Part shown: piece by piece, positions 4,325-55,344 of the stretch
How positions within the stretch are numbered: position 1 is the first letter of the stretch
Layout of the letters: every line of letters starts with the position of its first letter
Notes under the pieces: model-generated
The model's input: only the letters and a program-made list of their open reading frames with translations
The model's database searches: none
What the model was told of the DNA's origin: nothing
Translations under genes and position numbers: made by a program
From: Priestia megaterium NBRC 15308 = ATCC 14581
GTDB taxonomy: Bacteria; Bacillota; Bacilli; Bacillales; Bacillaceae_H
Direction of reading: 5' to 3'
Assembly (NCBI RefSeq): GCF_000832985.1
Contig: NZ_CP009920.1
Coordinates: forward strand, 3,342,501 to 3,406,500
DNA: 64,000 bases

Positions 4325-4462
4325 AGAAGCAGGGACAAAAGTAGTTTAGTTGAAGAAAGCTCCGAACGAGTAATCGTTCGGAGCTTTTTATTGTTATGGT
4401 GAACGTAGAGTTAATCTATTTAGCTGCTTCTAGCTGTTGATTGAATTGATTTTGTTATGTGT
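4325..4462 (+). repeat. interspersed terminator-carrying element, copy R1 (short form)
   Basis: It starts with a degenerate form of the shared end (GAAGCAGGGACAAAAGTAG), then a terminator with stem AGCTCCGAACGA / TCGTTCGGAGCT, then the conserved GTTATGGTGAACGTAG and AGCTGTTGATTG blocks. It jumps straight to the far-end block TTGATTTTGTTATGTGTTGA. The GC-rich core found in long copies is missing. It lies just after ykqA. Confidence 0.8.
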
Positions 4463-4466
4463 TGAA

Positions 4467-5342
4467 TTAGCTAAAGGAAACAGAGAATTCTGTTTGAAAT
4501 ACACCGTCTTTTGATAAACGGTTGATGCCTAATTTTTCTTTGAAATTTCCGTTGTGATCATGCGTATCTGCAATTCCAAACCAAGGTTCGATGCAAAGAA
4601 AAGGAGCGATTGTATGATTTTCTGCATCATACTTTGACCAAATACCGACATACGGGAAATCATTAAACTGAACGTTAATTTGATTTTCATTAACCGGCGA
4701 TTTAATCGTAATTCCGTCAATATGACTAAAAATTAGCGCATCATTTGCAAATAAATCTGCGCTTAGCGGCAGCTGATGCAAATTTTCTGCAGCTCCTTTT
4801 TCATGAATAAGAGCGTCTTTTAATATAAATTCCTTCGGCGTAGTTTTAGAAGGCTCTATTTCTAAAAAGTAATCAGAAATCTGCTCGTTTTCACGTAACG
4901 GAATACGAAAAGCAGGGTGGGCTCCAATTGAAAAATACATATCGTCTTTATCTTCGTTCACTACTTTCCACTGAAAAGTTAATCGGTTATTTTCCAGACG
5001 GTAGCTGATTTCAACTGAACATTCAAACGGATATACGTCTTTAAAGCGGCCGTTTGTAGCAAATTGCAGCCGTGCCGTTTCGTTTGTTTGTTCGATCACG
5101 CTGAAAGCAGAATCACGTAAAAAACCGTGCTGTGGCAAAGAGTATTCGCGCTGATCAACGGTATACTGATCATTTTTTAATCGGCCTACGATTGGAAACA
5201 ATACGGGGGATACTCGTCCCCAATAAGCGGGGTCTCCGCTCCACATGAACTGCAGGTCTTTTTCTTTATGAAATACTTCTACAACTTCCGCTCCTTTTTC
5301 TTGAATACTTACTTTCATTTTACTATTTTCTAGTACAATCAT
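4467..5342 (-). CDS. aldose-1-epimerase family protein (GalM/LacX-like)
   Basis: The protein of about 291 residues carries the galactose mutarotase beta-sandwich signature. Recognisable parts are the FSIGAHPAFRIP block with the catalytic histidine and the late CIEPWFGIADTHDHNGNF block. The family interconverts alpha and beta anomers of free or phosphorylated sugars in the cytosol; LacX-type members are substrate-unassigned. The start at 5342 has GGGAG eight bases upstream. It stands alone, and its 3' end faces repeat R1. Confidence 0.85.
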   Translation of the reverse strand: MIVLENSKMKVSIQEKGAEVVEVFHKEKDLQFMWSGDPAYWGRVSPVLFPIVGRLKNDQYTVDQREYSLPQHGFLRDSAFSVIEQTNETARLQFATNGRFKDVYPFECSVEISYRLENNRLTFQWKVVNEDKDDMYFSIGAHPAFRIPLRENEQISDYFLEIEPSKTTPKEFILKDALIHEKGAAENLHQLPLSADLFANDALIFSHIDGITIKSPVNENQINVQFNDFPYVGIWSKYDAENHTIAPFLCIEPWFGIADTHDHNGNFKEKLGINRLSKDGVFQTEFSVSFS

Positions 5343-5483
5343 TACAACATCTCCCAAATCATTCTTGTACGCTCGAGCAGCCTCAAACGTACTGGCTTTG
5401 CCTATATTATACCCTTCTTGGCAAAAAAGGTATTAATTTCCCTATTTTTGTTCAAATTAATATAGAAAAAGGAGGGTTCAAAT

Positions 5484-5930
5484 ATGAATCATGCAACATT
5501 ATTGCTCATTAAATTTGCAGCGGCACTTATTGCGTTTGGTATAGGCCTTGATTTGTTTTTTGATGCAACCATCGGAGACATTATTTCCTTTAGCTTGCTA
5601 ACGACAGTTGTGACATATTTAGTAGTGGATCGAATTGTACTGCCTCGAGTGGGCAACCGTGATGCCATTATTGTTGAATTTGTTCTAACCTATATGAGCG
5701 TATGGATTTTTGGAACATTGTTATTAGACAGCTACGTTCAAATTGCTTGGGGAAGTATTATTTCTGCAGCTATTATTACATTTGCCGAGGTTTTTGTTCA
5801 CCGCTACTTATTCAACCATATTGAAACGAAACATACAGTGAGAACGCGTCCCGCTTTTAAGCGAAAACTAGCGTATGACACAGAATTTGCAGAAGAACAG
5901 CATGTAGAAAACAAGGAAAATCCAAAATAA
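5484..5930 (+). CDS. yndM: YndM/DUF2512 family membrane protein
   Basis: The 148 residues have four hydrophobic segments (about 5-25, 30-50, 60-80, 84-105) followed by a basic and acidic cytosolic tail of about 40 residues. This matches the DUF2512 family (B. subtilis YndM), small integral membrane proteins of endospore formers with no known function. AAAGGAGGG lies before the ATG. A terminator follows at once, so it is monocistronic. Confidence 0.82.
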   Translation: MNHATLLLIKFAAALIAFGIGLDLFFDATIGDIISFSLLTTVVTYLVVDRIVLPRVGNRDAIIVEFVLTYMSVWIFGTLLLDSYVQIAWGSIISAAIITFAEVFVHRYLFNHIETKHTVRTRPAFKRKLAYDTEFAEEQHVENKENPK

Positions 5931-5962
5931 AAAGAAAGCTCACTTTTGAGCTTTCTTTTTTA
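5931..5962. terminator. intrinsic terminator between yndM and signal peptidase
   Basis: The arms AAAGAAAGCTCA and TGAGCTTTCTTT are followed by a T run. It can serve both convergent genes. Confidence 0.75.
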
Positions 5963-5966
5963 TGTG

Positions 5967-6518
5967 TTAATGCATAAGAGTCATTTCCTTTAAAGGCCAG
6001 TATTTCATATTGACTTCTCCTATGATCGAAGAAATCGGAGTGAGGCCAAAATGTCTGCCATCTCGGCTAATGCGTCTGTTGTCACCTAGCACTAATACGT
6101 ATCCATCGGGTATCGTGCCGTCTTGAGACAGTTCGTACGTGGAAAAATTTTCAGTAAATCGCTCGTAAGCGGGTACTTTGGATAAATATTTATGAAGATG
6201 CGGTTCTTTTTTGACTTTGTTATTTATATACAGAACATCATCTTTGTATTCGACCGTTTCTCCTGGTAAGCCGACGATGCGCTTTACTAGAAAATCACTG
6301 CTATAGGGAGCTTGCAAAACGACAATGTCAAAGCGCTCCAGCTTGCTGTGTTTGTTAATAATAATTCGATTGCCTTCGTGCAAAATAGGCTTCATAGAAT
6401 CGCCTTTTACAGTGTAGGGCTGAAACCAATAGTGCTGAACGACAACAGAAAGCAAAACAGTGCCGAGGATGACGCTTGTGTATGTAAGAATTTCACGCTT
6501 TAGTTTTTTATTGACCAT
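5967..6518 (-). CDS. type I signal peptidase
   Basis: It is a 183-residue membrane-anchored protease that removes signal peptides from exported proteins. One N-terminal membrane segment (about residues 12-32) is followed by the box with the serine nucleophile (KGDSMKP) and the box with the general-base lysine (VKRIVGLPGE). The GDNR.SRDGR box lies near the end. These are the prokaryotic P-type Ser/Lys boxes of SipS/SipT relatives. The start at 6518 is chosen because AAGGTG precedes it; the 26 upstream codons are unlike the family. Confidence 0.93.
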   Translation of the reverse strand: MVNKKLKREILTYTSVILGTVLLSVVVQHYWFQPYTVKGDSMKPILHEGNRIIINKHSKLERFDIVVLQAPYSSDFLVKRIVGLPGETVEYKDDVLYINNKVKKEPHLHKYLSKVPAYERFTENFSTYELSQDGTIPDGYVLVLGDNRRISRDGRHFGLTPISSIIGEVNMKYWPLKEMTLMH

Positions 6519-6684
6519 AATGGATGAACACCTTCTTAACGGTAAGACTGTCAATTTAAGTTTTTCATAGAGATATAACAGTGTTGATTGTACCATTCAG
6601 AACTAAAGTTTTCCATATCTATATCTATCTGTTTATGCGTGTATGCCAAAAATATAAAAATATGCATGAGGGAACAAAAAATGA

Positions 6685-6722
6685 AAAGAGCCGTTATTCT
6701 AGGGAATAACGGCTCTTCTTTA
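6685..6722 (-). terminator. intrinsic terminator of the LapA-domain gene
   Basis: The arms GAGCCGTTATTC and GAATAACGGCTC form a perfect 12-bp stem just after the stop of the gene at 6723-7058. Confidence 0.8.
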
Positions 6723-7058
6723 TTATAAGTGAGCGCGCTCAGTTCGAGTAGCTGGTTGATTTGGTTCTTCTTCCACAACAGGCTCAACAGGCTTATGCTG
6801 CTTGATTTCTTCTTCCAGCTCAGCAATTCGCTTGTTTTTCTGCTTCACTTGTCCTCTTAGTTGAACAATTTTTACAAAGCTCAATGAAGCAGCAACAACT
6901 CCTCCAAACACGGCCGTTGTTAAGATAATTAAAATAAGAGGCCATTTTTGTGAACCAAATACATAGTTAAATTGTACAGGATCGTTGTTAATTACAGCTA
7001 AAACAGCAATGATAAGAGCAAATATAAGTCCTAAAATAAAAAAGCTCTGTCCTTTCAT
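6723..7058 (-). CDS. LapA-domain (DUF1049) membrane protein
   Basis: The protein of 111 residues has two hydrophobic helices (about 5-25 and 38-65), then a coiled coil with KQKNKRIAELEEEIKQ, then an acidic, proline-rich tail. This is the LapA/DUF1049 layout. LapA helps lipopolysaccharide assembly in Gram-negatives; in Firmicutes the role is unknown. ATG at 7058 with AAGGAA nine bases upstream is preferred over the GTG three codons earlier. It is monocistronic. Confidence 0.8.
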   Translation of the reverse strand: MKGQSFFILGLIFALIIAVLAVINNDPVQFNYVFGSQKWPLILIILTTAVFGGVVAASLSFVKIVQLRGQVKQKNKRIAELEEEIKQHKPVEPVVEEEPNQPATRTERAHL

Positions 7059-7313
7059 AAGCTGCACTTCCTTTCTTTACATGGTCATTACAACTTTTAT
7101 AGCGTAACCACTCATCTTAAGTGTTTGCTATCTTGCTTATAGGTATACGTATCCACATTTAAACAAAATCAAACATTTTCTTGATTATATGTATCTTTCT
7201 TTTAAAACACAATATATCGATTGGTGTAGCAACTTTGACATGTCCAAAGACCTGGTATGTCGAATTTTTGGAATAAAGAGCTCGCGTATCCTTTTTGATT
7301 AAGCAGATTAAGC

Positions 7314-7323
7314 GGGGGGGGGG
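7314..7323. repeat. G10 homopolymer
   Basis: A run of ten G lies in an otherwise AT-rich intergenic stretch, followed by AGGGAC. No gene crosses it. It is a possible slippage site or assembly artefact. Confidence 0.7.
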
Positions 7324-7355
7324 AGGGACTTCCATTTAAATCATATATGTACAAA

Positions 7356-7656
7356 GAGGCTGTGACATAACTGAATGAATCCAATCTAAAGACGAACAAA
7401 TGAGATCCATGAGCTGAACCGCTTATGACACCGCAGTTGATTTCCATGCAAGACTTCGCTTTCCGCGGGCGGCCGCTGAGCCTCCTCGTCTGTCACGCTT
7501 TTCCCGCAGGAGTCTTCGTCTTACCCTTCAATCAACTGCTAGAAGGAACGAAACAGATGAAGCAGTATTCAAGTAACAAAAAAACGAACCACTCATCAAA
7601 CATGTTGATCAATGGTTCGTTTTTCACTTGGGCTAAGATACTTTTGTCCCAGCCTC
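7356..7656 (-). repeat. interspersed terminator-carrying element, copy R2 (long form, inverted)
   Basis: On the minus strand it reads from the GAGGCTGGGACAAAAG end (7656) through a terminator (about 7578-7625, stem with AACGAACCA), past the TTGATTG block and the GC-rich core (CTTTCCGCGGGCGG on the plus strand), to the GTTATGTCACAGCCTC end (7356). The orientation places the terminator arm on the side of the minus-strand ymaF gene. Small frames inside it are not genes. Confidence 0.85.
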
Positions 7657-7722
7657 ACTTTTATTAAAGCGGTTATATGAACTCAAGCTGAGACCTTGGC
7701 TTAATTGCATTAAACTATTTCA

Positions 7723-8061
7723 TTATCTATCGCCCGGAGCAGGATGATCTACACCTTTGACATGATGCCGATGCTGGTTGTCTTCACTGGTATAAAAGTC
7801 ATAATAGTGAACATGCATACCGTTGCCAATGGGAATAGCGGGACCAGAGTAGGCTTTGTAATGATGTGTATGTCCGTCTTCAAAAACAACATAGCCTTCT
7901 GTATAGTGAATGTGGCTTCCATCCTCGCTTTGAATTGGAGGAGACGTTACATCGAGGCATTGATGGACATGTCCTGACGCAACAGAAGTGTAGTCTACTG
8001 AGCCATGATTATGATGAGGAACAAATCCTGAAACAAAATCGTCCTTGCCTATTTTTTTCAT
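7723..8061 (-). CDS. ymaF: YmaF-family histidine-rich protein
   Basis: The 112 residues include many paired or spaced histidines: PHHNHG, SGHVHQ, GSHIHY, DGHTHHY, GMHVHYY and HRHHVKG. They form repeated 'G-H-x-H' turns separated by about 18-22 residues. This matches the YmaF family (PF12788), known only by sequence. The repeated H-x-H motifs suggest metal binding, which is inference. There is no signal peptide or membrane segment. A Shine-Dalgarno GGGGGAAG precedes the ATG. Confidence 0.85.
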   Translation of the reverse strand: MKKIGKDDFVSGFVPHHNHGSVDYTSVASGHVHQCLDVTSPPIQSEDGSHIHYTEGYVVFEDGHTHHYKAYSGPAIPIGNGMHVHYYDFYTSEDNQHRHHVKGVDHPAPGDR

Positions 8062-8289
8062 TTTACTTCCCCCTACAAATTCAATTTTAAAAACTGTTTA
8101 AGTAAATTCTTTAAATTGGCATTTGAATTTCTCTTTTTAGTTAAATTCAAAAATACATGCTATTGATATGAACAAAGAAAAATAAATATGACTTTTGATA
8201 ATCTGGATTTATAAAATAGGTAGTCTTCCTGTGTGTTTGCCGTTTCTACTTGATAACTTTCACATATATTTATTAAGAAAGGACAAGTT

Positions 8290-8721
8290 ATGATACGAAA
8301 GGAAGTCAGCATAATGAGTTGGGAAAATAAAAAGAGTCTGTGTCAGGAGTTTGCGAGAATTCTAGGTGGACAAGGCAGTTTAGATGAAAATGGCGTTTGT
8401 TTGGTACAAAAGTTTCGGACGATTCGTTTTAAAATTTTAGGGCGTCCAACACGCTCTCCATTAGTTACTCCTCAATTTTTCACTTTTGAAGATTTAGATA
8501 GCAAGGGAAGAGCGCTAAATCTAGGTGAAACCGTGCTTTTGCAAGAAGAGGTAAATCCATTATTAACGGAGCTTAGAAAAAGAGATATTAAGGTTACAGC
8601 CGTTCACAACCATTGGCTATTTGAAGAGCCGAGAGCAATGTATATGCATTTTGAATCCGTAGAACCACCGTTAGATTTTGCACGAAAAGTAAGAGAAGCG
8701 TTTAGAGTATTAAAAGGATAA
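8290..8721 (+). CDS. DUF1259-family protein
   Basis: The 143 residues match the DUF1259 (LppY/LpqO-like) domain. It starts with EFARILGGQGSLDENGVC and has the conserved VTAVHNHWLFEEPRAMYMHFES segment, whose clustered histidines suggest a metal site. Actinobacterial relatives are secreted lipoproteins; this one has no signal peptide. ATG 8290 has AAAGG at good spacing; ATG 8314 is a possible alternative with its own weaker site. Function unknown. Confidence 0.78.
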   Translation: MIRKEVSIMSWENKKSLCQEFARILGGQGSLDENGVCLVQKFRTIRFKILGRPTRSPLVTPQFFTFEDLDSKGRALNLGETVLLQEEVNPLLTELRKRDIKVTAVHNHWLFEEPRAMYMHFESVEPPLDFARKVREAFRVLKG

Positions 8722-8888
8722 GAATCAGTTTTTTATAGAATCAGTTTATTCTTATTTACTGCTTTTAAAATTAGATTAATAAAACTTTAAACATGTATAT
8801 TATATATTGGTTTATAAACTGCGCTTGAATGAACCTATCAGGTTAACTAATTTTTGAGCAGTGAGATTATTCGAGTACTTCTATCCAA

Positions 8889-8925
8889 ATAAAAAAAGCA
8901 CGCGTTCGCCGCGTGCTTTTTTTAT
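8889..8925. terminator. intrinsic terminator
   Basis: The stem AGCACGCG / CGCGTGCT with a small TTCG-containing loop sits between A and T runs, just after the stop of the minus-strand gene at 8934. Confidence 0.85.
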
Positions 8926-8933
8926 GTATAAAC

Positions 8934-9686: not shown

Positions 9687-9939
9687 AAAATTTTTCGTAC
9701 TCCTTTCTACAAATCTTCATTTTATAAGCAAAGGTAGAGTTTGGTCAAATGAAAGAATAATCAGACAGTTATCAACTGCTGTTGCAGCGCCTTGCAGAAT
9801 GATATGTATTCCAATATTTAGTGGGAAAGCGCCAATAATAATTGCTTCAATTCTTCTTTAGTTTTTACAAAAACATATAAAAATATGCCGATACTACTAA
9901 TATAGATTAGACATTCTATGTCTTTAGATGGTATAGGGA

Positions 9940-10182
9940 ATGAAAAATAAAAAAAGCGTTTCAAAGTTTACATGTGAAATGCTATATATGATGGTCATAA
10001 CACTTACTGTAATTGAAGTGACAAATTATTATCTTATTATGAAACAAGAGCAAGCAGCCTCGATTATGCTAGTGATTACATTTCTGTTTGCTTTTCTTAC
10101 AACTACCGTGTTCTATTTTATCATACGTCGCTCTATAATGGCGGTTGAAAATTTAACGAAAGTAATGAAAGGGGTTTCGTAA
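9940..10182 (+). CDS. small two-helix membrane protein, 80 aa
   Basis: The function is not recognised. Two hydrophobic helices (about residues 14-33 and 41-62) are separated by the short loop MKQEQAA, with a basic N-terminus and a short C-terminal tail. The ribosome site is poor (AGGGA touches the ATG), so the start is uncertain. Confidence 0.45.
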   Translation: MKNKKSVSKFTCEMLYMMVITLTVIEVTNYYLIMKQEQAASIMLVITFLFAFLTTTVFYFIIRRSIMAVENLTKVMKGVS

Positions 10183-10887: not shown

Positions 10888-10934
10888 AAGATAGAGAAGT
10901 TCTCCAAATTAAGAAATGTGAAAGAGTGATAAAT

Positions 10935-12089: not shown

Positions 12090-12153
12090 AATATTTTTAT
12101 TTTTCTATTTACGGGGATGGAATTGTTTGATAAAATAAATTTTAAATTAAAAA

Positions 12154-12300
12154 GTTATCACGAGTGGACGAGAGATCTGGCTCTTTGACTCCACAGCAAC
12201 CTACGAATGTAAGGTGCTCCTACCAGCAAAGCATGTGCTTTGGGTGATAAAACGGGTGAAAAACTCATTTTGCATCAAAGCAAAATGAGTTTTTTTTATT
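12154..12300 (+). ncRNA. SAM-I (S-box) riboswitch with terminator
   Basis: P1 is TTATCAC at the start pairing with GTGATAA near 12243-12249. The core keeps AGCAACC, AAGGTGCT and CCAGCA in the S-box order. P2 has TGGA/TCCA around a kink-turn-like GA/TGA element. P3 is CCTAC/GTAAGG and P4 CAAAGC/GCTTTG. The expression platform is an 11-bp terminator (ACTCATTTTGC / GCAAAATGAGT) followed by eight T. High SAM would therefore switch off the next gene. The P2 loop departs from the commonest sequence, but the three-dimensional anchors are present. Confidence 0.85.
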
Positions 12301-12864: not shown

Positions 12865-12865
12865 A

Positions 12866-16083: not shown

Positions 16084-16530
16084 ATGCTTCAAATCCTCGA
16101 ACATCAAAGAGTGGATATCGCTCTTCAAATAGTAGCTGTGCAAGTAGAAGCTTATCAAGAAGAAGCAAGGCTCATTGGTTTTTCAGATATTCCTCAGCTT
16201 ACAGAAAGCAAAGAAGATATTATGAAAAGCAAGGAAGTGTTTATCGGAGAAATGATTGAAGGTAAGCTAGCAGGAGTGCTGTCGTTTGAAAAAGAAAATG
16301 AGCGATTAACGATTTGCCGCCTCGTTGTGCGTCCTCGTTACTTTCGAAAAGGAATCGGAAGCTGTCTTTTAACACATGTACTTCAAAGATATTCTGAATG
16401 TGAATGTATAGTGTCTACAGCCGAAAAAAATACACCTGCGATTAAGCTGTACAAAGCACATCAGTTTTCAATTATAAAACACACTGCAGCTGCTGATAAC
16501 CTTGTGTTAGTAACGATGAAAAGAGATTAA
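16084..16530 (+). CDS. GNAT-family N-acetyltransferase
   Basis: The protein of 148 residues carries the acetyl-CoA loop YFRKGIGSCLL after the strand ICRLVVRPR, and the late NTPAIKLYKAHQF region typical of GNATs. ATG 16084 is chosen because GGAG lies eight bases before it. The last codons and the TAA stop appear to be supplied by the end of the interspersed element R3. Substrate unknown. Confidence 0.8.
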   Translation: MLQILEHQRVDIALQIVAVQVEAYQEEARLIGFSDIPQLTESKEDIMKSKEVFIGEMIEGKLAGVLSFEKENERLTICRLVVRPRYFRKGIGSCLLTHVLQRYSECECIVSTAEKNTPAIKLYKAHQFSIIKHTAAADNLVLVTMKRD

Positions 16531-16829
16531 GACATCGCTAAATTAATCTAAAGGCCAACAAATGAGCTACATGAGCTAGTAGGAATCGACTGTTGATTTC
16601 CGTGCAAGACTTCGCTTTCCGCGGGCGGCCGCTGAGCCTTCTCGTCGCTTGCGCTCCTGCGGGGTCTCATCTCTTCCGCTATTCCTCAGTAGTCTCCGTC
16701 TTGCTTTCCAATCAACACAGCTAGAATACTCATAACAATAAAAAAATCCGAACGCGTTGGATTCTCCATCAAGAATCTCGATTCACCGTTCGGATCTTCT
16801 TTCGACTAAAATAATGTTGTCCCGGCCTC
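16523..16829 (-). repeat. interspersed terminator-carrying element, copy R3 (long form, inverted)
   Basis: It spans the whole gap between two convergent genes. One end (GAGATTAAGACAT, matching GAGGTTGAGACAT of other copies) contains the stop codon of the GNAT gene. The other end (TTGTCCCGGCCTC) touches the TAG of the MFS gene. The terminator stem ATCCGAACG / CGTTCGGAT (16746-16795) lies on the MFS side. The GC-rich core is present but diverged. Confidence 0.82.
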
Positions 16830-17998
16830 TACGATGAGAGTGTTTGCTCAGAATAATCTAGAGCTGTATGACGCTGAATCAGCAGTAAAGCAGCTAAAGT
16901 GACAACAGCTCCGATAATAAAAGGCAGCGTCATATTGAGTTTAAAGGCAAATGCACCAAGCAGAGGGCCAAAAATACGCCCTAAGCTATCCATTGAGGCG
17001 GTCAGCCCCGAAGCAGAGCCATATCCTACTTTGGTTCTCATTGTAATTAATGAGAGGACACAAGGACGAATAAGGGCATTTCCTGCTGTAAATATGCACA
17101 AAAATAAGGTAGCATTAACGGCACTAGAAGATAACAAAATAGACGTAAATCCTATTGCTGAAACTAATAAGCCAATGGCCATCAGCTTTTTTTCATTTCC
17201 TTTTTTAAATCGCTGCAGCACACCGCCTTGAATCAGCGCTTGAGTTAAACCGCTCGCCATAAACATCCATCCGATTGTCGTAGGAGTAGCATTAATTTTC
17301 GCTATTTGAAAAAATTGAAAAGTAGCTTCTAAACCAGCGAGCGTAAAAGTCGCTAAAAATGAAAGAACATATAAATACTTCATAGCTCCTTGAAAATCTG
17401 ACGTGAAGTCATGCCATCTCGATGTCTGTACTTTATCAGCAGATTCTTTTCGTAAAGATTCTTTTAACGTAAAGAATGAGAACGCTGTCATAATCAGTGA
17501 CAAGATACCAGAGATAACGAAGGGAACAAACAAGCCGAAAGATGAAAGGACGCCGCCTAATGCCGGTCCAAAAATAAAGCCTAAGCCAATCGACATTCCT
17601 AACAGTCCCATTGCTTTCGTTCGGTTTTCTTCATCTGTACTATCAGAAGCATATGCAAAAGCACAAGGAATAACAGCTCCTGCAAACAAACCTCCGATGA
17701 TGCGCGACGTATACATTAAAGTCAGAGAGTTTTCTGCCACCGAAAAAAGAAAAAAGCTTGCGCTAAAGCCGAGTAAGCCCCAAAGTAAGATGGGACGCCG
17801 GCCTTTTATATCGGAAAGCTTCCCCCAAAAAGGTGCGGTAATAAAAGATGCGATCGAATAGCTAGCCATTAGTATTCCTAAATTGACCGTGCTTGCACCC
17901 GTGGCACGAATAACTTCAGGTACGATGGGGATGATCACTCCAAAGCCGACAAATACCATAAAAATAACAAACATTAACGTTCCAAGCTGTTTGTTCAT
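16829..17998 (-). CDS. major facilitator superfamily exporter (DHA1, multidrug type)
   Basis: The protein of about 389 residues has twelve hydrophobic segments. The loop 2-3 motif reads GKLSDIKGRRPIL (motif A). The proline/glycine-rich motif C region appears as GLGFIFGPALGGVLS in helix 5. These mark a drug/H+ antiporter of the 12-helix group, like Bacillus Bmr/NorA-type pumps; the substrate is unknown. ATG 17998 is chosen; a TTG two codons earlier is possible given AAAGGGG upstream. Confidence 0.87.
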   Translation of the reverse strand: MNKQLGTLMFVIFMVFVGFGVIIPIVPEVIRATGASTVNLGILMASYSIASFITAPFWGKLSDIKGRRPILLWGLLGFSASFFLFSVAENSLTLMYTSRIIGGLFAGAVIPCAFAYASDSTDEENRTKAMGLLGMSIGLGFIFGPALGGVLSSFGLFVPFVISGILSLIMTAFSFFTLKESLRKESADKVQTSRWHDFTSDFQGAMKYLYVLSFLATFTLAGLEATFQFFQIAKINATPTTIGWMFMASGLTQALIQGGVLQRFKKGNEKKLMAIGLLVSAIGFTSILLSSSAVNATLFLCIFTAGNALIRPCVLSLITMRTKVGYGSASGLTASMDSLGRIFGPLLGAFAFKLNMTLPFIIGAVVTLAALLLIQRHTALDYSEQTLSS

Positions 17999-18172
17999 AT
18001 GCAATTAAGCCCCTTTCTCTGTAGAACATGCCGTGAGTTTAGTATACCAAATACAAAGAAGTTTTTTACGTATATTTGGTAAAAAGCGTTTTATTTACAA
18101 ATGGATAACTATGTTAATATTTACCTGTTGTGCTGAGGATGATACAATTAAAAGAAAAGGGACGTGAAGTGA

Positions 18173-23667: not shown

Positions 23668-23823
23668 GAGACTGGGCAAAAGTAGTTTAGTTGAAGGAAG
23701 GTCCGAACGATAAGTCGAGGTTCTTGATAAAGAATCCAACTCGTTCGGATTTTTTCATTGTTATGATTATCGTATGTGTAGTTGTTTATCTCTAGATTCA
23801 ATTGATTTCGTTATGTCTCAACT
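23668..23823 (+). repeat. interspersed terminator-carrying element, copy R4 (short form)
   Basis: It begins at the base after the natB stop with GAGACTGGGCAAAAGTAGTTTAG. The terminator stem is TCCGAACGA / TCGTTCGGA, with a long inner imperfect stem. It ends in GATTTCGTTATGTCTCAAC. The GC-rich core and most of the middle are missing. Confidence 0.8.
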
Positions 23824-23881
23824 TTTTGTGTAGGGAAAGAGCAATTAAAAGAGAATGTAGGAAGAAAGGAGAGTGAGACAG

Positions 23882-37440: not shown

Positions 37441-37578
37441 CTTCTTAAGGAGTAAAGGGGAGTAGCGTCAGGGAAACCTGAAACAAAGTCGTCATTACAT
37501 GGAGTATTCCATCGGCTTTGTTGGCATAATGATTATGCTTAGCAAGACCTTTGCCATATTTGGCAAAGGTCTTTTTGT
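37441..37578 (+). ncRNA. yybP-ykoY manganese riboswitch with terminator
   Basis: The hallmark AAAGGGGAGTAGC at 37453-37467 opens the aptamer. It is followed by the short CAGGGAAACCTG hairpin and the second strand ACAAAGTCGTCA. A pairing arm returns at CGGCTTTGTTGGCATAATG. A terminator (AGACCTTTGCC / GGCAAAGGTCT plus T run, 37544-37578) ends the leader. Manganese binding in this class disrupts the terminator and raises expression. The TerC gene follows, the usual target. Confidence 0.88.
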
Positions 37579-42868: not shown

Positions 42869-42944
42869 TAAATGCTGGCCCTGACTTTTGTCGGGGCTGT
42901 GCTTGTTAACTAACTACTAATGGAATGAAAGGGTGTGTATATTC

Positions 42945-44033
42945 GTGGCAATTCCTTACGTGCAAGAGTGGGAAAAATTAATCAAATCAATGCCAAGTGA
43001 ATATAAAAGTTCTGCAAGACGTTTTAAGCGTGCATATGAAATTATGACAGCAGAAGCGGAACCGGAAGTTGGATTAACACCAAAAGAGGTTATTTGGAAA
43101 AAGAACAAAGCAAAATTATACCGCTATACGCCAGTAAAAGATAACCTGCATAAAACACCAATCTTACTCGTATATGCATTGATCAATAAACCGTATATTT
43201 TGGATTTAACACCTGGAAACAGCCTTGTTGAATACTTATTAAACCGTGGTTTTGACGTGTATTTGCTTGACTGGGGAACTCCAGGGCTTGAAGACAGCAA
43301 TATGAAGCTAGATGATTATATTGTAGATTATATTCCAAAAGCGGCGAAAAAGGTGCTGCGCACTTCTAAATCTCCTGATTTGTCTGTTCTTGGTTACTGC
43401 ATGGGCGGAACTATGACATCTATTTTTGCTGCATTAAATGAAGACTTGCCGATTAAAAACTTAATTTTTATGACAAGTCCATTTGATTTTTCGGATACAG
43501 GTTTATACGGAGCATTCCTAGACGATCGCTACTTTAATTTAGATAAAGCAGTAGATACATTCGGAAACATCCCTCCAGAGATGATTGACTTTGGAAACAA
43601 GATGTTAAAGCCAATCACGAATTTCTATGGCCCATATGTAACGTTGGTGGACCGTTCGGAAAATCAGCGGTTTGTTGAAAGCTGGAAGCTAATGCAAAAG
43701 TGGGTTGCTGACGGAATCCCATTTGCTGGTGAAGCTTATCGTCAGTGGATTCGTGACTTCTATCAACAAAATAAATTAATCAATGGTGAACTTGAAGTTC
43801 GCGGACGCAAAGTAGATTTGAAAAATATTAAAGCTAATATTTTAAACATTGCTGCTAGCCGTGATCATATTGCGATGCCGCATCAAGTGGCAGCTTTAAT
43901 GGACGCTGTTTCAAGTGAAGATAAAGAGTACAAATTGTTGCAAACAGGTCACGTATCTGTTGTATTTGGTCCAAAAGCAGTGAAGGAAACATATCCTTCA
44001 ATCGGCGATTGGCTAGAAAAACGCTCTAAATAA
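42945..44033 (+). CDS. phaC: class IV PHA synthase catalytic subunit PhaC
   Basis: The 362-residue alpha/beta-hydrolase-fold enzyme polymerises hydroxyacyl-CoA. The lipase-like box with the catalytic cysteine is GYCMGG. The conserved LLDWGTPG lies upstream. The late GHVSVVFGPKA holds the catalytic histidine, and the aspartate lies in AASRDHIAMPHQV. The GTG start at 42945 has AAAGGGTG upstream. The repeat element R5, with its terminator, follows and probably ends the operon. Confidence 0.95.
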   Translation: MAIPYVQEWEKLIKSMPSEYKSSARRFKRAYEIMTAEAEPEVGLTPKEVIWKKNKAKLYRYTPVKDNLHKTPILLVYALINKPYILDLTPGNSLVEYLLNRGFDVYLLDWGTPGLEDSNMKLDDYIVDYIPKAAKKVLRTSKSPDLSVLGYCMGGTMTSIFAALNEDLPIKNLIFMTSPFDFSDTGLYGAFLDDRYFNLDKAVDTFGNIPPEMIDFGNKMLKPITNFYGPYVTLVDRSENQRFVESWKLMQKWVADGIPFAGEAYRQWIRDFYQQNKLINGELEVRGRKVDLKNIKANILNIAASRDHIAMPHQVAALMDAVSSEDKEYKLLQTGHVSVVFGPKAVKETYPSIGDWLEKRSK

Positions 44034-44042
44034 AATAAAGAA

Positions 44043-44360
44043 GCGGCTGGGACAAAAGTATTTTAGCCGAAGTGAAAAACGAACCACTGATATTAGTGGT
44101 TCGTTTTTTTGTTATGGTAAACGTAGGTTTTAAATATATAGTTGCTTCTAGCTGTTGATTGGAGGGTAAGGCGAAGACTCCTGCGGGAAAAGCGGAACAG
44201 GTGAGACCCCGCAGGAGTGTCAGCGACGAGGAGGTTCACGGGCCGCCCGCGGAAAGCGAAGTCTTGCACGGAAATCAACAGCGATGTCACAAGCGGTTCA
44301 GCACATGTATCCCATTTGTTCGTCTTTAGATTGGATTCATTTAATTATGTCTCAACCTCG
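44043..44360 (+). repeat. interspersed terminator-carrying element, copy R5 (long form)
   Basis: It runs from GCGGCTGGGACAAAAGTA to TATGTCTCAACCTC. The terminator stem AACGAACCACT / AGTGGTTCGTT sits near 44080-44110. The core is bounded by GCTGTTGATT (44151) and AATCAACAGC (44273). Inside these lie CTCCTGCGGG (44178) and CCCGCAGGAG (44208), so stems are nested. It is the best preserved copy with R6 and follows phaC. Confidence 0.88.
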
Positions 44361-44438
44361 TTTTTTTTGTAAACAGACAATATTGATTGACGGTTCTTTA
44401 TGCGGGCTGCTGGAATATATGATATCTAATGACAAGTG

Positions 44439-44470
44439 AGGTGACTTCTTTTATACTAATGTAGTCACCT
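44439..44470. repeat. inverted repeat upstream of ktrD
   Basis: The arms AGGTGACT and AGTCACCT are separated by 16 bases. No T run follows, so it may be an operator or leader hairpin rather than a terminator. Confidence 0.5.
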
Positions 44471-44581
44471 TCTTGAACATGGGATTTTTTACATGGATAT
44501 TGCAATCCGTGTAACAATGAGTATGCTTTGAGAAGAAAGAAGAAAACTATTAGTATTATAACAAAAAAGGAATGTCAGATT

Positions 44582-45937
44582 ATGCCGCAACCATGGAAAC
44601 GACGAGTAAGGCAGATGTCTTCAGCTCAAATTATTGTTACATTTTACATAGTGGCTGTTACGCTTGGATTTCTATTACTTAGTATTCCAGAAGCTTTAAA
44701 GCCGGGAGTGAAGTTAGCATTTATTGATCGCTTATTTATTGCCGTTAGTGCGGTAAGTGTAACAGGGCTGACACCTGTCTCTACTCCGGATACATTTAGT
44801 ACAACGGGCTATTTTTTGCTCGCTTTTATTTTTCAAATCGGTGGTATTGGTGTAATGACACTCAGTACATTTATTTGGATGATTTTGGGTAAAAAAATCG
44901 GTTTAAAGGAACGTCAGCTCATTATGACAGACCATAACCAATCCCGCTTATCAGGATTAGTTGACTTGATGAGAAATATTTTATTTATTATTTTTGCCAT
45001 TGAACTAGTTGGCGCCATTGTTTTAGGATTACATTTTCTCCGTTATTATTCGAGCTGGACAGATGCATTTTTGCATGGTTTCTTTGCTTCTGTCAGCGCT
45101 ACAACAAATGCTGGCTTCGATATTACAGGATCTTCATTTATTCCGTATGCCCATGATTATTTTGTCCAAGTGGTAACCGTTATTTTAATTACGCTTGGAG
45201 CGATTGGATTCCCTGTATTAATTGAAATTAAGCACTATTTTTTAACATTTAAAGATAAGCGTAAATTTCAATTTTCGCTATTTACGAAGCTAACGACCAT
45301 TATGTTTTTTCTGCTGTTAGCAGGGGGAACAATCTTGATTCTTGTGCTAGAGCATTCAGGATTTCTAGCAGATAAGTCTTGGGATGAATCGTTTTTTTAT
45401 GCATTTTTCCAATCTGCTGCCACAAGGAGCGGAGGAGTAGCGACCATGAATATTAATGAGTTTTCACTTCCTACGTTAATTATGATGAGTGCGATGATGT
45501 TTATCGGTGCTTCACCGAGTTCAGTAGGGGGAGGAATTCGTACGACGACGTTTGCATTAAATATTCTTTTCCTGTTTTATTATGTCAGAGGAAATAAGAC
45601 GATTAAAATCTTTCGCCGCGAAATTCATGAAGATGACATTATTAAATCAGTAGCTGTATCGATGTTAGCCGTAATCATTTGCTCGATTTCTCTTCTTATT
45701 TTAAGTATTACAGAACATTTTTCTCTCATTGAGCTTATTTTTGAAGTGTGTTCAGCTTTTGGGACAACAGGTTTATCAATGGGAATTACGGGAGGGCTTT
45801 CGGATATCGGCAAATGCGTTATTATGATTTTAATGTTTATTGGCCGAATCGGCATGTTTTCATTTATTTTAATGCTTCGCCGTCCAACGTCTGGACCGGA
45901 TTATCACTATCCGAAAGAACGTATTATTATTGGATAA
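44582..45937 (+). CDS. ktrD: Ktr/Trk-type K+ transporter membrane subunit (KtrD-like)
   Basis: The 451-residue channel-like subunit has four M1-P-M2 repeats. P-loop filters are visible as SVTGLTPV, ATTNAGFD, TRSGGVAT and FGTTGLSMG. It imports potassium with a cytosolic KtrA/KtrC partner that is not encoded here. B. subtilis KtrD (YkrM) has no adjacent partner gene either, and lies near kinE-ogt-mtn as this gene does. ATG 44582 follows AAAGGAA. Element R6 begins three bases after the stop. Confidence 0.88.
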   Translation: MPQPWKRRVRQMSSAQIIVTFYIVAVTLGFLLLSIPEALKPGVKLAFIDRLFIAVSAVSVTGLTPVSTPDTFSTTGYFLLAFIFQIGGIGVMTLSTFIWMILGKKIGLKERQLIMTDHNQSRLSGLVDLMRNILFIIFAIELVGAIVLGLHFLRYYSSWTDAFLHGFFASVSATTNAGFDITGSSFIPYAHDYFVQVVTVILITLGAIGFPVLIEIKHYFLTFKDKRKFQFSLFTKLTTIMFFLLLAGGTILILVLEHSGFLADKSWDESFFYAFFQSAATRSGGVATMNINEFSLPTLIMMSAMMFIGASPSSVGGGIRTTTFALNILFLFYYVRGNKTIKIFRREIHEDDIIKSVAVSMLAVIICSISLLILSITEHFSLIELIFEVCSAFGTTGLSMGITGGLSDIGKCVIMILMFIGRIGMFSFILMLRRPTSGPDYHYPKERIIIG

Positions 45938-45939: not shown

Positions 45940-46270
45940 GAGGCTGAGGTAAAAATATGTTAGTTGAAGAAGAATCCGAACGAGCTTAATTCTTAATCAA
46001 GCTCGTTCGGATTTTTTTATGATGGTAAACATAGGTCTCATATGTTTAGCTGCTTCCAGCTGTTGATTGGAGGGTAAGGCGAAGACGCCTGCGGGAAAAG
46101 CGGAACAGGTGAGACCCCGCAGGAGCATAAGCGACGAGGAGGCTCACCGACCGCCTGCGGAAAGCGAAGCTTTGCACGGAAATCAACAGCGGTGTCACAA
46201 GCGGTTCAGATGAACTCATTTATCCCATTTGTTTGTCTTTAGATTAAAGTAATTTCGTTATGTTTCAACC
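45940..46270 (+). repeat. interspersed terminator-carrying element, copy R6 (long form)
   Basis: It begins just after the ktrD stop (GAGGCTGAGGTAAAAAT). The terminator stem TCCGAACGAGCTT / AAGCTCGTTCGGA lies at 45970-46017. The core from GCTGTTGATTGG to AATCAACAGC is nearly identical to R5. It ends GTTATGTTTCAACC. Confidence 0.88.
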
Positions 46271-46366
46271 GCTTTTTTACAGCTTTTTCTGCTTATATTA
46301 CGCATCAGAAAGTGCATTCTAAGAAAAGGAAGTTCAATGGACTTCCAAGCATAGGAGGGATATATG

Positions 46367-51070: not shown

Positions 51071-51105
51071 ATTCCGTCAGCTAGTAATGAGAGGAGAGTT
51101 TTTTT

Positions 51106-51936
51106 ATGAAAGAGCTACAAAAGCAAATTATTGAAGAAATGCACGTCCAAAAAGAAATTAATCCCGTGGAAGAAATTCGCCGCAGCGTTGATTTTCTGAA
51201 ATCCTACATGAACAAATATCCGTTTTTACGTTCGTTTGTACTAGGTATTTCCGGCGGCCAAGATTCTACGTTAACTGGAAAGCTGGCGCAGCTAGCGGTT
51301 AATGAGTTGAACGAAGAAGCGGGAGAAGAGCGCTATCAGTTTATTGCTGTTCGTCTTCCATACGGTGTGCAAGCAGATGAAGCAGACTGTCAAGATGCAC
51401 TTGCTTTTATTCAACCAACAAAATCTATTTCTATTAACGTAAAACCAGCAGTAGATGCTATGCTTTCTGCTGTTGAAGAAGCGGCAGATGATAAAGTTTC
51501 CGACTTCAACAAAGGAAATGTAAAAGCGCGTGAACGAATGATTGCGCAATATACGGTAGCGGGCATGTACAGTGGAGTCGTACTCGGAACAGATCACTCT
51601 GCTGAAGCTGTTACAGGATTTTATACAAAATTCGGTGACGGAGGAGCTGACTTAGTACCTATTTTCCGTCTGAACAAGCGACAAGGAAAACAAATGCTAA
51701 AAAAATTAGGCTGTCCCGAGCATCTATATATGAAAAAACCAACGGCTGATTTGGAAGAAGATCGTCCACAGCTTCCGGATGAAGAAGCGCTTGGCGTAAC
51801 GTATGAGCAAATCGACGATTATTTAGAAGGCAAAGATGTAGGTGAACATGCAAGTAACGTCATTGAAGGTCACTTCTTAAAAACGCAGCATAAACGCCAA
51901 TTGCCAATCACAGTATTTGATGATTTTTGGAAATAA
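51106..51936 (+). CDS. nadE: NH3-dependent NAD+ synthetase NadE
   Basis: The 276-residue enzyme catalyses the last NAD step, amidating nicotinate adenine dinucleotide with ammonia and ATP. The P-loop is [41 protein letters not shown] and [16 protein letters not shown] are the substrate segments. It lacks a glutaminase domain, hence ammonia-dependent. Co-transcription with pncB links salvage to synthesis. Element R7 follows. Confidence 0.95.
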
Positions 51937-51944
51937 ATAAGTAA

Positions 51945-52067
51945 GAAGCTAAGACAAAAGTAGTTTAGTTAAAGGAAGATCTGACCGGTGAAGATTCTTG
52001 ATAGAGAATCTTCACCGGTCGGATTTTTTTAATGTTATGGCAAACGTAGGTTTCACGTATCCCAATT
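51945..52067 (+). repeat. interspersed terminator-carrying element, copy R7 (short form)
   Basis: It starts GAAGCTAAGACAAAAGTAGTTTAG, carries the most diverged but longest perfect terminator stem (GACCGGTGAAGATTC / GAATCTTCACCGGTC), then GTTATGGCAAACGTAGGTTTCA. It then jumps to CGTATCCC, found near the far end of long copies. Internal deletion is clear. Confidence 0.75.
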
Positions 52068-52146
52068 TCTTATTTTTTATGAAAAAAAGATAGCAAACAA
52101 AGAAAGGTATTTTCGAAAAACTAGTGAAATTAGAAAAACATAGGAG

Positions 52147-52172
52147 TATAATAGCATTAAGTCATCTGATGA
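52147..52172 (+). promoter_or_regulatory. lutABC promoter -10 and LutR operator
   Basis: TATAAT lies at 52147-52152. The palindrome TCATC-T-GATGA at 52162-52172 falls at or just after the expected transcription start. This matches the site reported for LutR (TCATC-N-GATGA). Repression by road-block or promoter occlusion is likely. Confidence 0.75.
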
Positions 52173-52216
52173 CCTGTTAACTAAAAGAAGTAAAATGATC
52201 AGCTTGGAGGGAGCAA

Positions 52217-52939
52217 ATGATGAAAGTATCTTTATTTGCCACATGTTTGATTGATATGTTTCAAACAAATGTAGGAAAAGCGACGGTAGAATTGTTAGAA
52301 CGATTAGGATGCGAAGTGGATTTTCCAAAGAGTCAAGTTTGCTGCGGACAGCCTGCATATAACAGCGGTTACGTAAAAGAATCAAAAGAAGCGATGAAAA
52401 ACATGATAAAAGCGTTTGAACATGCAGAGTACGTTATATCTCCGTCTGGCTCGTGTGTGACAATGTTCAAAGAGTATCCCCATCTTTTTAAAGGTGATAC
52501 TGCATGGCATGAACCTGCCGTGAAGCTTGCTGATAAAACGTATGAGCTAACAGATTTTATTGTAAACGTTTTAAAAGTGGAAGATGTAGGAGCCAGTTTA
52601 AATGGTAAAGCCACTTATCATTCTTCTTGTCATATGACGCGTTTGCTAAACGTAAAAAAAGAACCTTTTACACTATTAAACAATGTAAAGGGTCTTGAAA
52701 TGGAAAACCTTGAAAACAGTCATAACTGCTGCGGATTCGGCGGGACGTTTTCGGTTAAAATGGGGCAAATCTCTGAACAAATGGTCGATGAAAAAGTGAG
52801 CTGTATAGCTAAGACAAACGCAGAGTACTTAATTGGAGCTGACTGCGGCTGTCTTATGAATATTGGAGGAAGAATTGAACGAAAAGGACAGCCTGTAAAA
52901 GTGATGCATATCGCTGAAGTGTTAAATAGCAGAATGTAA
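52217..52939 (+). CDS. lutA: L-lactate utilisation protein LutA
   Basis: The protein of 239-240 residues has two cysteine-rich CCG domains, with motifs [13 protein letters not shown] and [14 protein letters not shown], which bind iron-sulphur or related cofactors. LutA, LutB and LutC together oxidise L-lactate to pyruvate and allow growth on lactate. GGAGGGAGCAA precedes two ATG codons (52217, 52220); either may be used. First gene of lutABC. Confidence 0.93.
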
Positions 52940-52956
52940 AGAAAGGAGAATACCGA

Positions 52957-54396
52957 ATGTCTATGAAAATAGGAAACGATCAGTTTAAAAAACGCGTCGA
53001 TGATGGAGTCAATAATGCGTTTATGCGCTTTGCGGTTTCAGGTGCTCAAGAGCGCTTAAGAAGCCGTAGATTAGATGCGGCAGAAGAGTTAGGAAACTGG
53101 GAAGAATGGAGAGCGCTTGGCGAAGAAATTCGTCAGCATACGCTTGAAAATTTAGATTATTATTTAGAGCAGCTCACTGATAATGTAGCTAAACGCGGAG
53201 GCCACATTTTTTTCGCTCAAACAGCTGAAGAAGCGAATGAGTACATAAAAAATGTAGCGAAGCAAAAACAGGCAAAGAAAGTGGTTAAATCCAAGTCAAT
53301 GGTTACAGAAGAAATTCATATGAACGCTGCTTTAGAAGAACTAGGCTGTGAAGTTATTGAAACGGACTTAGGAGAATATATCCTGCAAGTAGATGATCAC
53401 GATCCGCCTTCTCATATCGTAGCTCCTGCGCTTCATAAAAATAAAGAACAAATTAGAGATGTGTTTCAGGAAAAGCTTTCTTATAAAAAGACAGAAAAAC
53501 CTGAAGAACTAGCTCTTCATGCCCGGGAAATGCTGAGAAAAGAATTTTTATCAGCAGATATTGGCATCACAGGATGTAATTTTGCGATTGCAGAATCTGG
53601 ATCTATTTCACTTGTAACCAATGAAGGAAATGCAAGGTTAACAACAGCCCTTCCTAAAACGCAAATTACGGTTATGGGAATGGAAAGAATTGTGCCAACG
53701 TTTGAAGAATTTGAAGTGTTGGTAAGCCTGTTAACTAGAAGTGCAGTAGGTCAGCGGCTTACAAGTTACGTAACAGCGCTTACAGGACCTAGACTTCCTG
53801 GAGAAGTAGATGGACCGGAAGAGTTTCACCTAGTAATTGTGGATAACGGACGATCTGCGATTTTAGGAACTGAATTTCAATCTGTTTTACAGTGTATTCG
53901 CTGTGCGGCATGTGTGAATGTATGTCCCGTGTATCGCCATATTGGAGGACATTCATATGGATCTATTTATTCAGGTCCGATTGGAGCTGTATTATCTCCT
54001 TTACTTGGAGGCTATGAAGACTACAAAGAGCTTCCATATGCCTCAACGCTATGCGCAGCCTGTACAGATGCCTGTCCGGTCAAAATTCCGCTGCATGAGC
54101 TATTGCACAAGCATCGTCAGCGAATTGTCGAAAAAGAAGGAAAAGCACCTATTTCGGAAAAGCTGGCGATGAAAGCATTTGGCTTGGGAGCAGCTTCTTC
54201 TTCTCTATATACAGTGGGCGCTAAAGTAGCACCGGCAGCTCTTACTCCTTTTATGTCAGGAAGCAGTATTTCCAAAGGGCCTGGTCCATTAAAAGCGTGG
54301 ACGGAAAGCAGAGAGTTTCCGGCGCCTACAAAAGAGCGCTTACGAGATTGGTTTGATAAAAGGAGTGATGAGGATGAACGGAAGCATTCAAAATAG
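52957..54396 (+). CDS. lutB: L-lactate utilisation iron-sulphur protein LutB
   Basis: The 479 residues have an LutB/LldF (DUF162) domain (about 60-300; [18 protein letters not shown]). Two ferredoxin-like 4Fe-4S motifs follow: [12 protein letters not shown] and [11 protein letters not shown]-terminal tail completes it. It is the electron-transfer subunit. AAAGGAG precedes the ATG. Its end overlaps the start of lutC by 23 bases, so the two are coupled. Confidence 0.93.
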
Positions 54397-55087
54397 AGAC
54401 AGTTTTTTAGACAATATTGCTGCTAATCTTAAGCGAAGCAGGCGAACAAGCGGCGTAGTAAAGCCACAATGGAAGCATGCTCCTCAGCATGAGGTCTACC
54501 GCAGCTATTCGCCAGATCAATTAAAGAAAGAGCTTGAAAACCATTGCGAACGTATTCATACTCGCTATGTAGAAACATCATCACAACACTTGCCAGCTGT
54601 CCTTGAGGAAGCCGTAGCGAACTATGGAAATGGTCTTGTCTGCACGTGGAATGATCCTAGGTTTTCCGAATATGGATTGAATCTGCTGATGGAGAAATGG
54701 GAAACAAGCAGTAGCCTTCATGTATGGAATTCTGGAAAAGGCGATGAGAATATTCAACTAGCTGAACAAGCAAATGTTGGCATTACCTTCAGTGATTTGA
54801 CGCTAGCGGAATCCGGCACAGTTGTTTTGTTCAGTAGCGCTGAAAAAGGACGATCGGTAAGCTTGCTGCCCGCCACTTATATTGCAATCATACCTCAAAG
54901 CTCAATTGTTCCTCGCATGACACAAGCCGCTGAAATGATTCATGAAAAAGTAGAGCGAGGAGAAAAGATTGCTTCTTGCATTAACTTTATTACGGGACCG
55001 AGCAATTCAGCTGATATTGAAATGAATTTAGTAGTTGGTGTGCATGGGCCTATTCAAGCAACTTATATTGTAGTGAATGATCGATGA
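54374..55087 (+). CDS. lutC: L-lactate utilisation protein LutC
   Basis: The protein of 237 residues has an LutC/YkgG (DUF162) domain. The conserved parts are [17 protein letters not shown] and [24 protein letters not shown]. It completes lactate oxidation with LutAB. ATG 54374 has AGGAG eight bases before it, inside the lutB end. The TGA stop overlaps the first bases of repeat element R8. Confidence 0.92.
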
Positions 55088-55344
55088 GGCTGTGACAAAC
55101 GTATTTTAGCCCAAGTGAAAAACGAACCATTACTCAACGTGTTTGAGTAATGGTTCGTTTTCTTTGTTATGGTGAGCGTAGGTTTCATCCGTTTCGTTCC
55201 TTCTAGCAGTTGATTGGAAGGCAAAGCGAAGACTCCTGCGGAAAGAAAAGACTTGTACGGAAATCAACAGCGGTGTAACAAGCGGTTCAGCTCATGTATC
55301 CAATTTGTTTGTCTTTAGATTAGATTGATTTAGTTATGAGCCTC
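55085..55344 (+). repeat. interspersed terminator-carrying element, copy R8 (core partly deleted)
   Basis: It begins TGAGGCTGTGACAAACGTA, with TGA also the lutC stop. The terminator stem ACGAACCATTACTCAA / TTGAGTAATGGTTCGT lies at 55117-55163. The core is shortened, going from GACTCCTGCGGAAAG to GACTTGTACGGAAATC. It ends GTTATGAGCCTC. Confidence 0.82.

Follow-up and report, generated by a model that had tools for sequence, protein, structure and literature searches.

Among the closest described systems are IS1272 and TnSha1, IS1182-family insertion sequences of staphylococci whose targets are inverted repeats, often terminators; the hairpin is removed on insertion and no target duplication arises (PMC5678879, PMC4923244), and IS1272 acts in the replacing direction (PMC5678879). 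In the text of these two papers available to us an element-borne terminator is described for neither element, and the word "terminator" is absent from that of PMC5678879. The repeats described here resemble both elements in that a hairpin target is replaced without target duplication, whereas IS1272 and TnSha1 encode a transposase and have a hairpin near each end. The repeats are short (about 120-340 bp) and gene-less, occur in far higher numbers, and contain a single hairpin and a core of different origin. The EFAR repeats of enterococci are miniature palindromes; their empty sites are stem-loops, and stem remnants are kept. Their likeness to the Priestia repeats is drawn from description. 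EFAR repeats are named as enterococcal MITEs in PMC3733652. The bcr repeats, which are specific to the Bacillus cereus group and linked to a TTTAT-associated recombination-like mechanism, are likewise dispersed repeats of 100-400 bp in Bacillus, as compared by description only (PMC6542083). The SPRITE repeats of pneumococcus also contain a terminator-like hairpin, but hairpin-replacing insertion is not reported for them in the available part of PMC10969869. The Bhal-1, Efa-1 and Sta-1 families (PMC2267715) could overlap with the core or the ends.

A search of the open PMC literature found no paper that describes the Priestia repeats or an IS1272-type element bearing a terminator. The preliminary description of this locus had known no published name for the repeats, and this holds for the family itself, while its transposition mode is that of a known insertion sequence family. 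The MITE family and its terminator payback role were not found described. As far as sequence comparison can tell, we consider it likely that the repeats are IS1182-family MITEs of the IS1272 kind that replace terminators, carry one of their own and change their stems in place.

The repeat family and its autonomous relatives

The window, a stretch of 64,000 nucleotides from Priestia megaterium NBRC 15308, was scanned over bases 1-63500 with a profile built from 31 family copies. Eight elements were matched and none in the reversed sequence used as control, showing that the eight dispersed repeats reported earlier are real. They are listed below together with the state of the orthologous site in the close relative G003; A and B are stem types.

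R1, 4326-4470, plus strand: without core, right end degenerate; hairpin 4357-4386; G003 site empty, with hairpin AAAAGCCTATTTGG..CCAAATAGGCTTTT
R2, 7356-7656, minus strand: shortened core; hairpin 7580-7624, type B; no clean orthologous site in the G003 stretch
R3, 16523-16829, minus strand: shortened spacer; hairpin 16745-16798, type A; the last base of the stop codon of the gene at 16829-18004 is the first of the element; G003 site empty
R4, 23668-23825, plus strand: without core; hairpin 23700-23751, type A; G003 site filled by a full-length copy
R5, 44043-44359, plus strand: full length; hairpin 44075-44108, type B; core about 44151-44282; G003 site empty
R6, 45940-46272, plus strand: full length; hairpin 45973-46013, type A; core about 46059-46190; G003 site empty
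R7, 51945-52069, plus strand: left part and right-end remnant; hairpin 51978-52025, rewritten stem; G003 site empty, longer copy in G001 and G007
R8, 55086-55344, plus strand: shortened core; hairpin 55119-55161, type B; the gene ending at 55087 shares the last two bases of its stop codon with the start of the element; G003 site empty, type-A element at the G007 site

Two copies, R5 and R6, are full length; internal shortening affects R2, R3 and R8, and the inner block is missing from R1, R4 and R7. The same ends had been ascribed to all copies. The left end is indeed recognisable in 8/8, but four right ends are degenerate, those of R1 (4458-4470), R4 (23814-23825), R7 (52058-52069) and R8 (55336-55344), so that the statement is strictly true for part of the copies only. 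From 20 copies sampled in 400 kb, the family size in the Priestia genome was estimated at about 270 (267 ± 60). No element contained an Rfam family at gathering score, the four riboswitches detected in the window all lying outside the elements. Phage records gave no matches to the element, nor did a 25-base end pattern match any viral contig exactly; a synteny scan of genome contigs returned 33 loci, one of them from Priestia.

An intact IS1182 element (L230), from a different Bacillales genome, shares the ends GAGGCTGGGACA...TGTCCCAGCCTC and carries a hairpin at the matching place; compared with the repeats, its left end (GAGGCTGGGACAAAA) shows 0 mismatches and its right end 1 in 15. In a sample of related loci (30 IS loci minus L269-L272), both ends were present with at most 4 mismatches in 20/26 (19 genera), and RNA folding gave a left-end hairpin in all 20. 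Related ends (GAGTCTGGGACATAA) and a left-end hairpin were also found in L278, a staphylococcal IS1182 element beside fabI that is probably IS1272. Autonomous elements have hairpins at both ends, the repeats a single one. The repeats have terminal inverted repeats in common with an autonomous member, are gene-less, dispersed and present in many copies, and have replaced a hairpin target without target duplication. These features mark them as MITE-type, gene-less relatives of the IS1272 kind of IS1182-family insertion sequence, and the term non-autonomous mobile element, used for them before, is supported by the shared ends and by the empty alleles described below.

No IS1182 transposase was found in their own Priestia genome, and a resident IS1182 partner was therefore rejected; mobilisation in trans by an autonomous transposase is putative, and the Priestia copies look like ageing relics. 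IS1182 elements with different ends (CAGACTGTAGACAAA, GAGGGCACTGAAAAA) were earlier candidates for the parent and were rejected. Several such other-end elements lie, as judged by eye, at terminator-like hairpins that are not replaced; instead the whole hairpin (L174, L176, L179) or its loop (L166, L170) is doubled.

The carried hairpin and its stem

In every copy in the window one paired hairpin with a T run behind it lies about 30 nt in from the left end, in agreement with the single predicted terminator at a fixed place and the stem types noted before. The same order of hairpin and T run on the transcribed strand, as in intrinsic (Rho-independent) terminators, was found in the 58 distinct copies scored, with the T run being required by the finder and with one duplicate and extra upstream helices removed from the table. 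Because the hairpin region aligns poorly between types A and B, RNAalifold predicted the core stem alone in a mixed alignment (A1), and covariation was therefore counted separately in hairpins of type-B length (26 in all, 24 own and 2 from relatives). Both-side changes were detected at 9/20 pairs, compared to 1.6 ± 1.0 in shuffles (0/500 reached 9), which places the proposal that stems differ while pairing is kept beyond chance.

In orthologues the stems change in place, most of them little or by single steps; this comparison covers single sites and yields no rate, because internal deletions inflate its flank differences and its helices were chosen roughly. Changes at three sites look like arm-to-arm copying, not exchange between copies. 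At site 121100 three genomes have a 21-nt unmatched arm where G009 has a 17-nt arm matching at 15/17. At R7 one arm contains a changed block that mirrors the other arm, and at R8 inverting the G001 hairpin gives exactly that of G009. Template-switch remodelling, by which a multi-base compensatory change arises in one event, was described by Monttinen and Loytynoja in 2022 for RNA genes, whereas a mobile-element hairpin is concerned here (PMC8794818). Ordinary compensatory point mutations and selection alone, without template switching, are possible, and the many G-U intermediates as well as the single-step differences between orthologues fit them, but the new matching arm at 121100, the mirrored block of R7 and the inverted hairpin of R8 incline us against this explanation. 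Since most orthologous stems have changed little or by single steps, template switching would account for a minority.

G-U pairs numbered 84 on the gene strand and 31 on the opposite strand (58 hairpins; the copies are related and the counts not independent), which means better pairing of the hairpin in RNA of the gene strand. With respect to the upstream gene, 24 of 36 copies were sense-only, 9 convergent, 1 antisense-only and 2 neither (p 1.5e-6, with copies being related), compared to 6, 7, 4 and 3 in a small sample of 20 autonomous elements (Fisher p 0.017 versus the repeats). Orientation and strand-specific pairing thus support the idea of a portable terminator to the extent that sequence can do so, and we read the carried hairpin as a stand-in for the terminator lost on insertion. 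In autonomous elements the hairpin lies between outside transcription and the transposase gene; it might therefore shield that parental gene and be merely inherited by the MITE, with the bias arising from the insertion reaction. We regard pure inheritance as unlikely, given that orientation is not clearly biased among autonomous elements with shared ends (6 to 4), that TnSha1 enters one terminator in both orientations (PMC4923244) and that the gene-less copies keep their hairpin paired and covarying.

Within type B (17 copies), mean pairwise identity was 0.891 in the hairpin versus 0.818 in the left and 0.728 in the right flank, while between type A (9 copies) and type B it was 0.62 in the 5' stem arm versus 0.81 and 0.71 in the left and right flanks. 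A variable stem between conserved flanks, as first suggested, is thus seen between the types in the 5' arm; within type B the hairpin is more conserved than its flanks, which speaks against this part of the suggestion. Exchange of hairpins among dispersed copies by recombination (gene conversion) would suit the flanks common to both types, and two sites with different types in different genomes fit either conversion or separate insertion. Such exchange appears improbable to us, as the R7 stem occurs once in the genome and the R8 stem has no second copy within two mismatches, leaving both without a donor, as the G007 copy at the R8 site begins one base differently, which suits separate insertion, and as most same-type orthologous pairs keep their own stem. 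The exchanging stem of the preliminary description is therefore given up in favour of in-place change with signs of arm copying. Its mobile predicted terminator is retained and extended to an element that would land on and replace host terminators.

Orthologous empty sites

In G003, a relative about 96% identical, the element is absent at 18/19 compared sites, the R4 site being the only filled one; matches scoring 30 or less and antisense hairpin repeats had been removed from the site count beforehand. Orthologous empty sites, proposed earlier as a check on mobility, do therefore exist. A terminator-like hairpin (at least 80% of the gap) was detected at 16/18 of them versus 33/600 control windows, which were random positions unmatched for gene ends, by a criterion set after the sites had been seen; the two remaining sites are 121100 and 131000. 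The outgroup G006 has a hairpin at the sites of R5, R6 and R8, with arms similar to those of G003 at R6 and R8, whereas G002 and G004 showed no evident hairpin directly 3' of the gene at R6. Judged by the end state in filled and empty alleles, the element took the place of a predicted host terminator hairpin, as published for IS1272. That the empty state is derived, G003 (a single close relative, mostly empty) having lost elements and regained terminators, is scarcely credible in view of the G006 hairpins, of 18 precise losses each with a new terminator and of the hairpin replacement published for IS1272 (PMC5678879).

Proposed mechanism and meaning

In the mechanism that we propose, a transposase acting on GAGGCTGGGACA ends would place the MITEs at intrinsic-terminator hairpins and the hairpin would be removed, a reaction taken from the published IS1272 model. 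The carried intrinsic terminator would lie near the end that faces the upstream gene, about 30 nt in, so that the gene would keep a terminator, and wrongly oriented copies would be purged, as the orientation bias suggests. After insertion the stem would change in place, selection on the transcript would maintain its pairing, and template switching may at some sites rewrite one arm from the other, a process to which the signature at three sites points. The core plays no part in this account.

On a broader reading our judgement is evenly divided, namely that the IS1272 kind in Bacilli lives by terminator barter, destroying the host terminator and paying with its own. Gene-less elements would have to pay because only correctly oriented copies survive, and the stem would be free to drift, since template switching continually restores matched arms; genome terminators would be turned over with time, with an estimated 270 Priestia gene ends on element-borne terminators.

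Gene ends that are filled in one species and empty in another, the two being about 96% identical, form a natural experiment on terminator swap, and orthologous hairpins with half-matched intermediates offer a direct test of how paired stems change. The system joins structure-aiming transposons, insertion cost and terminator evolution, which are usually separate fields, and replacement of the lost stop signal may explain how a gene-less parasite grows common without harm to its host.

Anatomy and abundance of the repeats

With a family profile built from 31 copies (alignment A1), the eight elements R1-R8 reported in the preliminary description were recovered in the window (contig C6:3342501-3406500 of the Priestia genome G000), and the reversed sequence gave zero matches to this profile. 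A full element is approximately 325 bp long and consists of the following parts:

Element left end: GAGGCTGGGACAAAA
Hairpin with T run: approximately 30 nt inside the left end
First spacer: GTTATGGTGAACGTAG
Core: G+C-rich, approximately 130 bp, closed by GCTGTTGATT/AATCAACAGC
Second spacer: between core and right end
Element right end: TTATGTCTCAACCTC

Sampling of twenty chromosomal segments of 20 kb at dispersed positions yielded 20 elements, corresponding by scaling to 267 ± 60 copies, and 16 were present in 183.5 kb around the window. No recent burst is apparent, since among the 31 aligned copies the closest pair was 89% identical and the median identity was 79%. R5-R8 and their orthologues in L065, a locus of another genome, differed chiefly through internal deletions, as is expected for long palindromic DNA. 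In the open-access literature, descriptions were found neither of this MITE family, nor of MITE and IS bearing a terminator at the end that faces the gene, nor of the contrast in orientation between MITE and IS, nor of the rewriting of stems.

In the P. megaterium plasmid pPmC-129-3 of another strain (L037), the gene of a class III PHA synthase subunit (PhaC), an R5-like element (89% identical) and a TrkH gene were observed next to one another in this order; the reading frames beside R5 (window 42933-45937) show the same layout, the comparison concerning layout only. The window also contains four riboswitches, three SAM and one manganese (12152-12253, 37445-37540, 60890-61040 and 63330-63436).

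Hairpins at empty target sites

The 183.5 kb of the own genome were compared with the same region of G009 and G007 (180 kb each), G003 (200 kb; approximately 96% identical) and G001 (72 kb). For 19 sites that carry the element in one or more of the genomes, the counterpart in G003 was located; 18 of these were empty there and one, that of R4, was filled; among the other window copies, the sites of R1, R3, R5, R6, R7 and R8 were empty and R2 was not placed. Of the 18 empty sites, 16 had a hairpin (stem score of at least 7) extending over 80% or more of the gap, compared to 33 of 600 control windows (Fisher p 2.6e-17), which were random and unmatched for gene ends, so that part of the contrast reflects the position of the elements at gene ends. 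The specific point is that the gap coincides with the hairpin. The two remaining sites had no strong hairpin over the gap (site 121100) or a strong hairpin covering 76% of it (site 131000).

In filled alleles the A and T tracts were retained, sometimes with about one pair of the old stem, and the old hairpin was gone. No target duplication was seen at the filled and empty alleles compared. At R3 and R8 the stop codon is completed by the first one or two bases of the element. Read by eye, a hairpin was present at R5, R6 and R8 in the outgroup G006 and at R6 in G008, and none was seen just after the gene at R6 in G002 and G004. The hairpin at target sites is taken here as the ancestral state. 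Sites 76600 and 93000 carried different hairpin types in different genomes, in keeping with one target having been used more than once. For IS1272, PMC5678879 and PMC4923244 describe how the transposon takes the place of a stem-loop.

Five other IS1182-family elements with ends CAGACTGTAGACAAA or GAGGGCACTGAAAAA (L174, L176, L179, L166 and L170) were found, by eye, at terminator-like hairpins, with either the whole hairpin or the loop alone duplicated. These duplications match the two other outcomes drawn in the model of PMC5678879.

Autonomous relatives and distribution

No IS1182-family transposase was found in a search of the own genome. In the genus Priestia, matches were obtained in 4 of 10 genomes, a single one being above the curated cut-off and containing an internal stop, and element-type ends were absent from all matches examined. 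An intact IS1182-family element of 1823 bp (L230; NF033551, 436.7 bits) was identified in genome G053, in the wider order; its ends are GAGGCTGGGACAAAA and TTATGTCCCAGCCTC, and bases 33-75 form a hairpin of 19 pairs. Relatives of its protein occur in 68 of 299 Bacillales genomes. Of 30 related loci returned, 26 were examined; 20, spanning 19 genera, had both ends at no more than four mismatches and six were without them. RNA folds placed a left-end hairpin in all 20 of these IS elements, and a simpler finder in 17, starting at base 24-38. All 20 hairpins differ, yet identity over the first 15 bases is 94% on average; a second hairpin of at least 15 pairs lies within the last 90 bases in 19 of the 20. 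The same ends and left hairpin were found in Cytobacillus and Kurthia plasmids, and related ends (2-3 mismatches) with a left hairpin in S. epidermidis and E. faecium plasmids. The S. epidermidis element is probably IS1272 itself, because it adjoins fabI. Since left hairpins occur in the autonomous relatives and the four plasmids, a stem that varies but keeps its pairing and its position, first recognized in the eight copies, is common to the whole group. The repeats are classed here as a new family of putatively mobile MITEs belonging to a transposon kind already known.

A full type-B element (types A and B being stem classes) matched 128 of 199 Bacillales genomes. Among the matches listed, those outside the P. 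megaterium group were mostly to the core, indicating that the core is an older, wider repeat. Inspection by eye showed elements complete in ends, hairpin and core in G018, G092 and G115 (L229, L226 and L227), and in a Peribacillus plasmid the core adjoins an IS1182 transposase, apparently within the end of that element. Four elements were found in 400 kb sampled of G003, and none in the samples of G002 and G006 (100 kb each) and G005 and G008 (20 kb each). The core of approximately 130 bp (window 44151-44282 in R5) is a repeat in its own right, matched across the order in 128 of the 199 genomes, and its closing stem shows covariation, one pair being A-U in some copies and U-A in others.

Stem change and orientation of the carried hairpin

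Orthologous stems were mostly near-unchanged or differed by a single step, and in type B the hairpin was more conserved than its own flanks. At R7 the arms matched at 13/17 positions in G007, 15/17 in G009, 17/17 in G001 and 16/17 in the own genome, the latter two stems differing from each other; where the sequence has changed, the right arm of the own genome is identical to the G007 right arm, and the left arm of the own genome is complementary to it. At site 121100 the left arm is 21 nt long in three genomes and does not match the right arm of 17 nt, and in G009 the left arm is 17 nt long and matches at 15/17. At R8 three pairs differed jointly between the own genome and G001, and the G009 hairpin was the exact inversion of that of G001. 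A donor copy is unlikely, since in the own genome no second copy of the R7 stem was found, and none of the R8 stem within two mismatches. The three loci carry what appear to be marks of template switching within the hairpin, as proposed for RNA genes in PMC8794818; here the hairpin belongs to a mobile element. In hairpins of type-B length, 9 of the 20 pairs covaried, a level that none of 500 shuffles attained, under a control that keeps relatedness.

In 58 distinct own hairpins, the gene strand gave 84 G-U pairs and the opposite strand 31. The hairpin was more stable on the gene strand in 39 cases, on the other in 11 and equal in 8 (p 9e-5), and with type B left out the gene strand was favoured 23 to 7 among 37 hairpins (p 0.005), these p values being too small as the copies are related. 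Orientation was scored from reading frames of at least 80 codons ending no more than 200 nt from the left end.

Reading frames at the left end of MITE copies and autonomous elements
Class: own MITE copies (36); autonomous elements (20)
Same-strand only: 24; 6
Convergent: 9; 7
Antisense only: 1; 4
Neither: 2; 3

The MITE was biased (binomial p 1.5e-6) and differed from the IS (Fisher p 0.017), as would be expected if an element has to end transcription of the gene whose terminator its insertion destroyed, because IS elements have hairpins near both ends and the MITE near one. PMC4923244 describes a single terminator that received insertions in either orientation.
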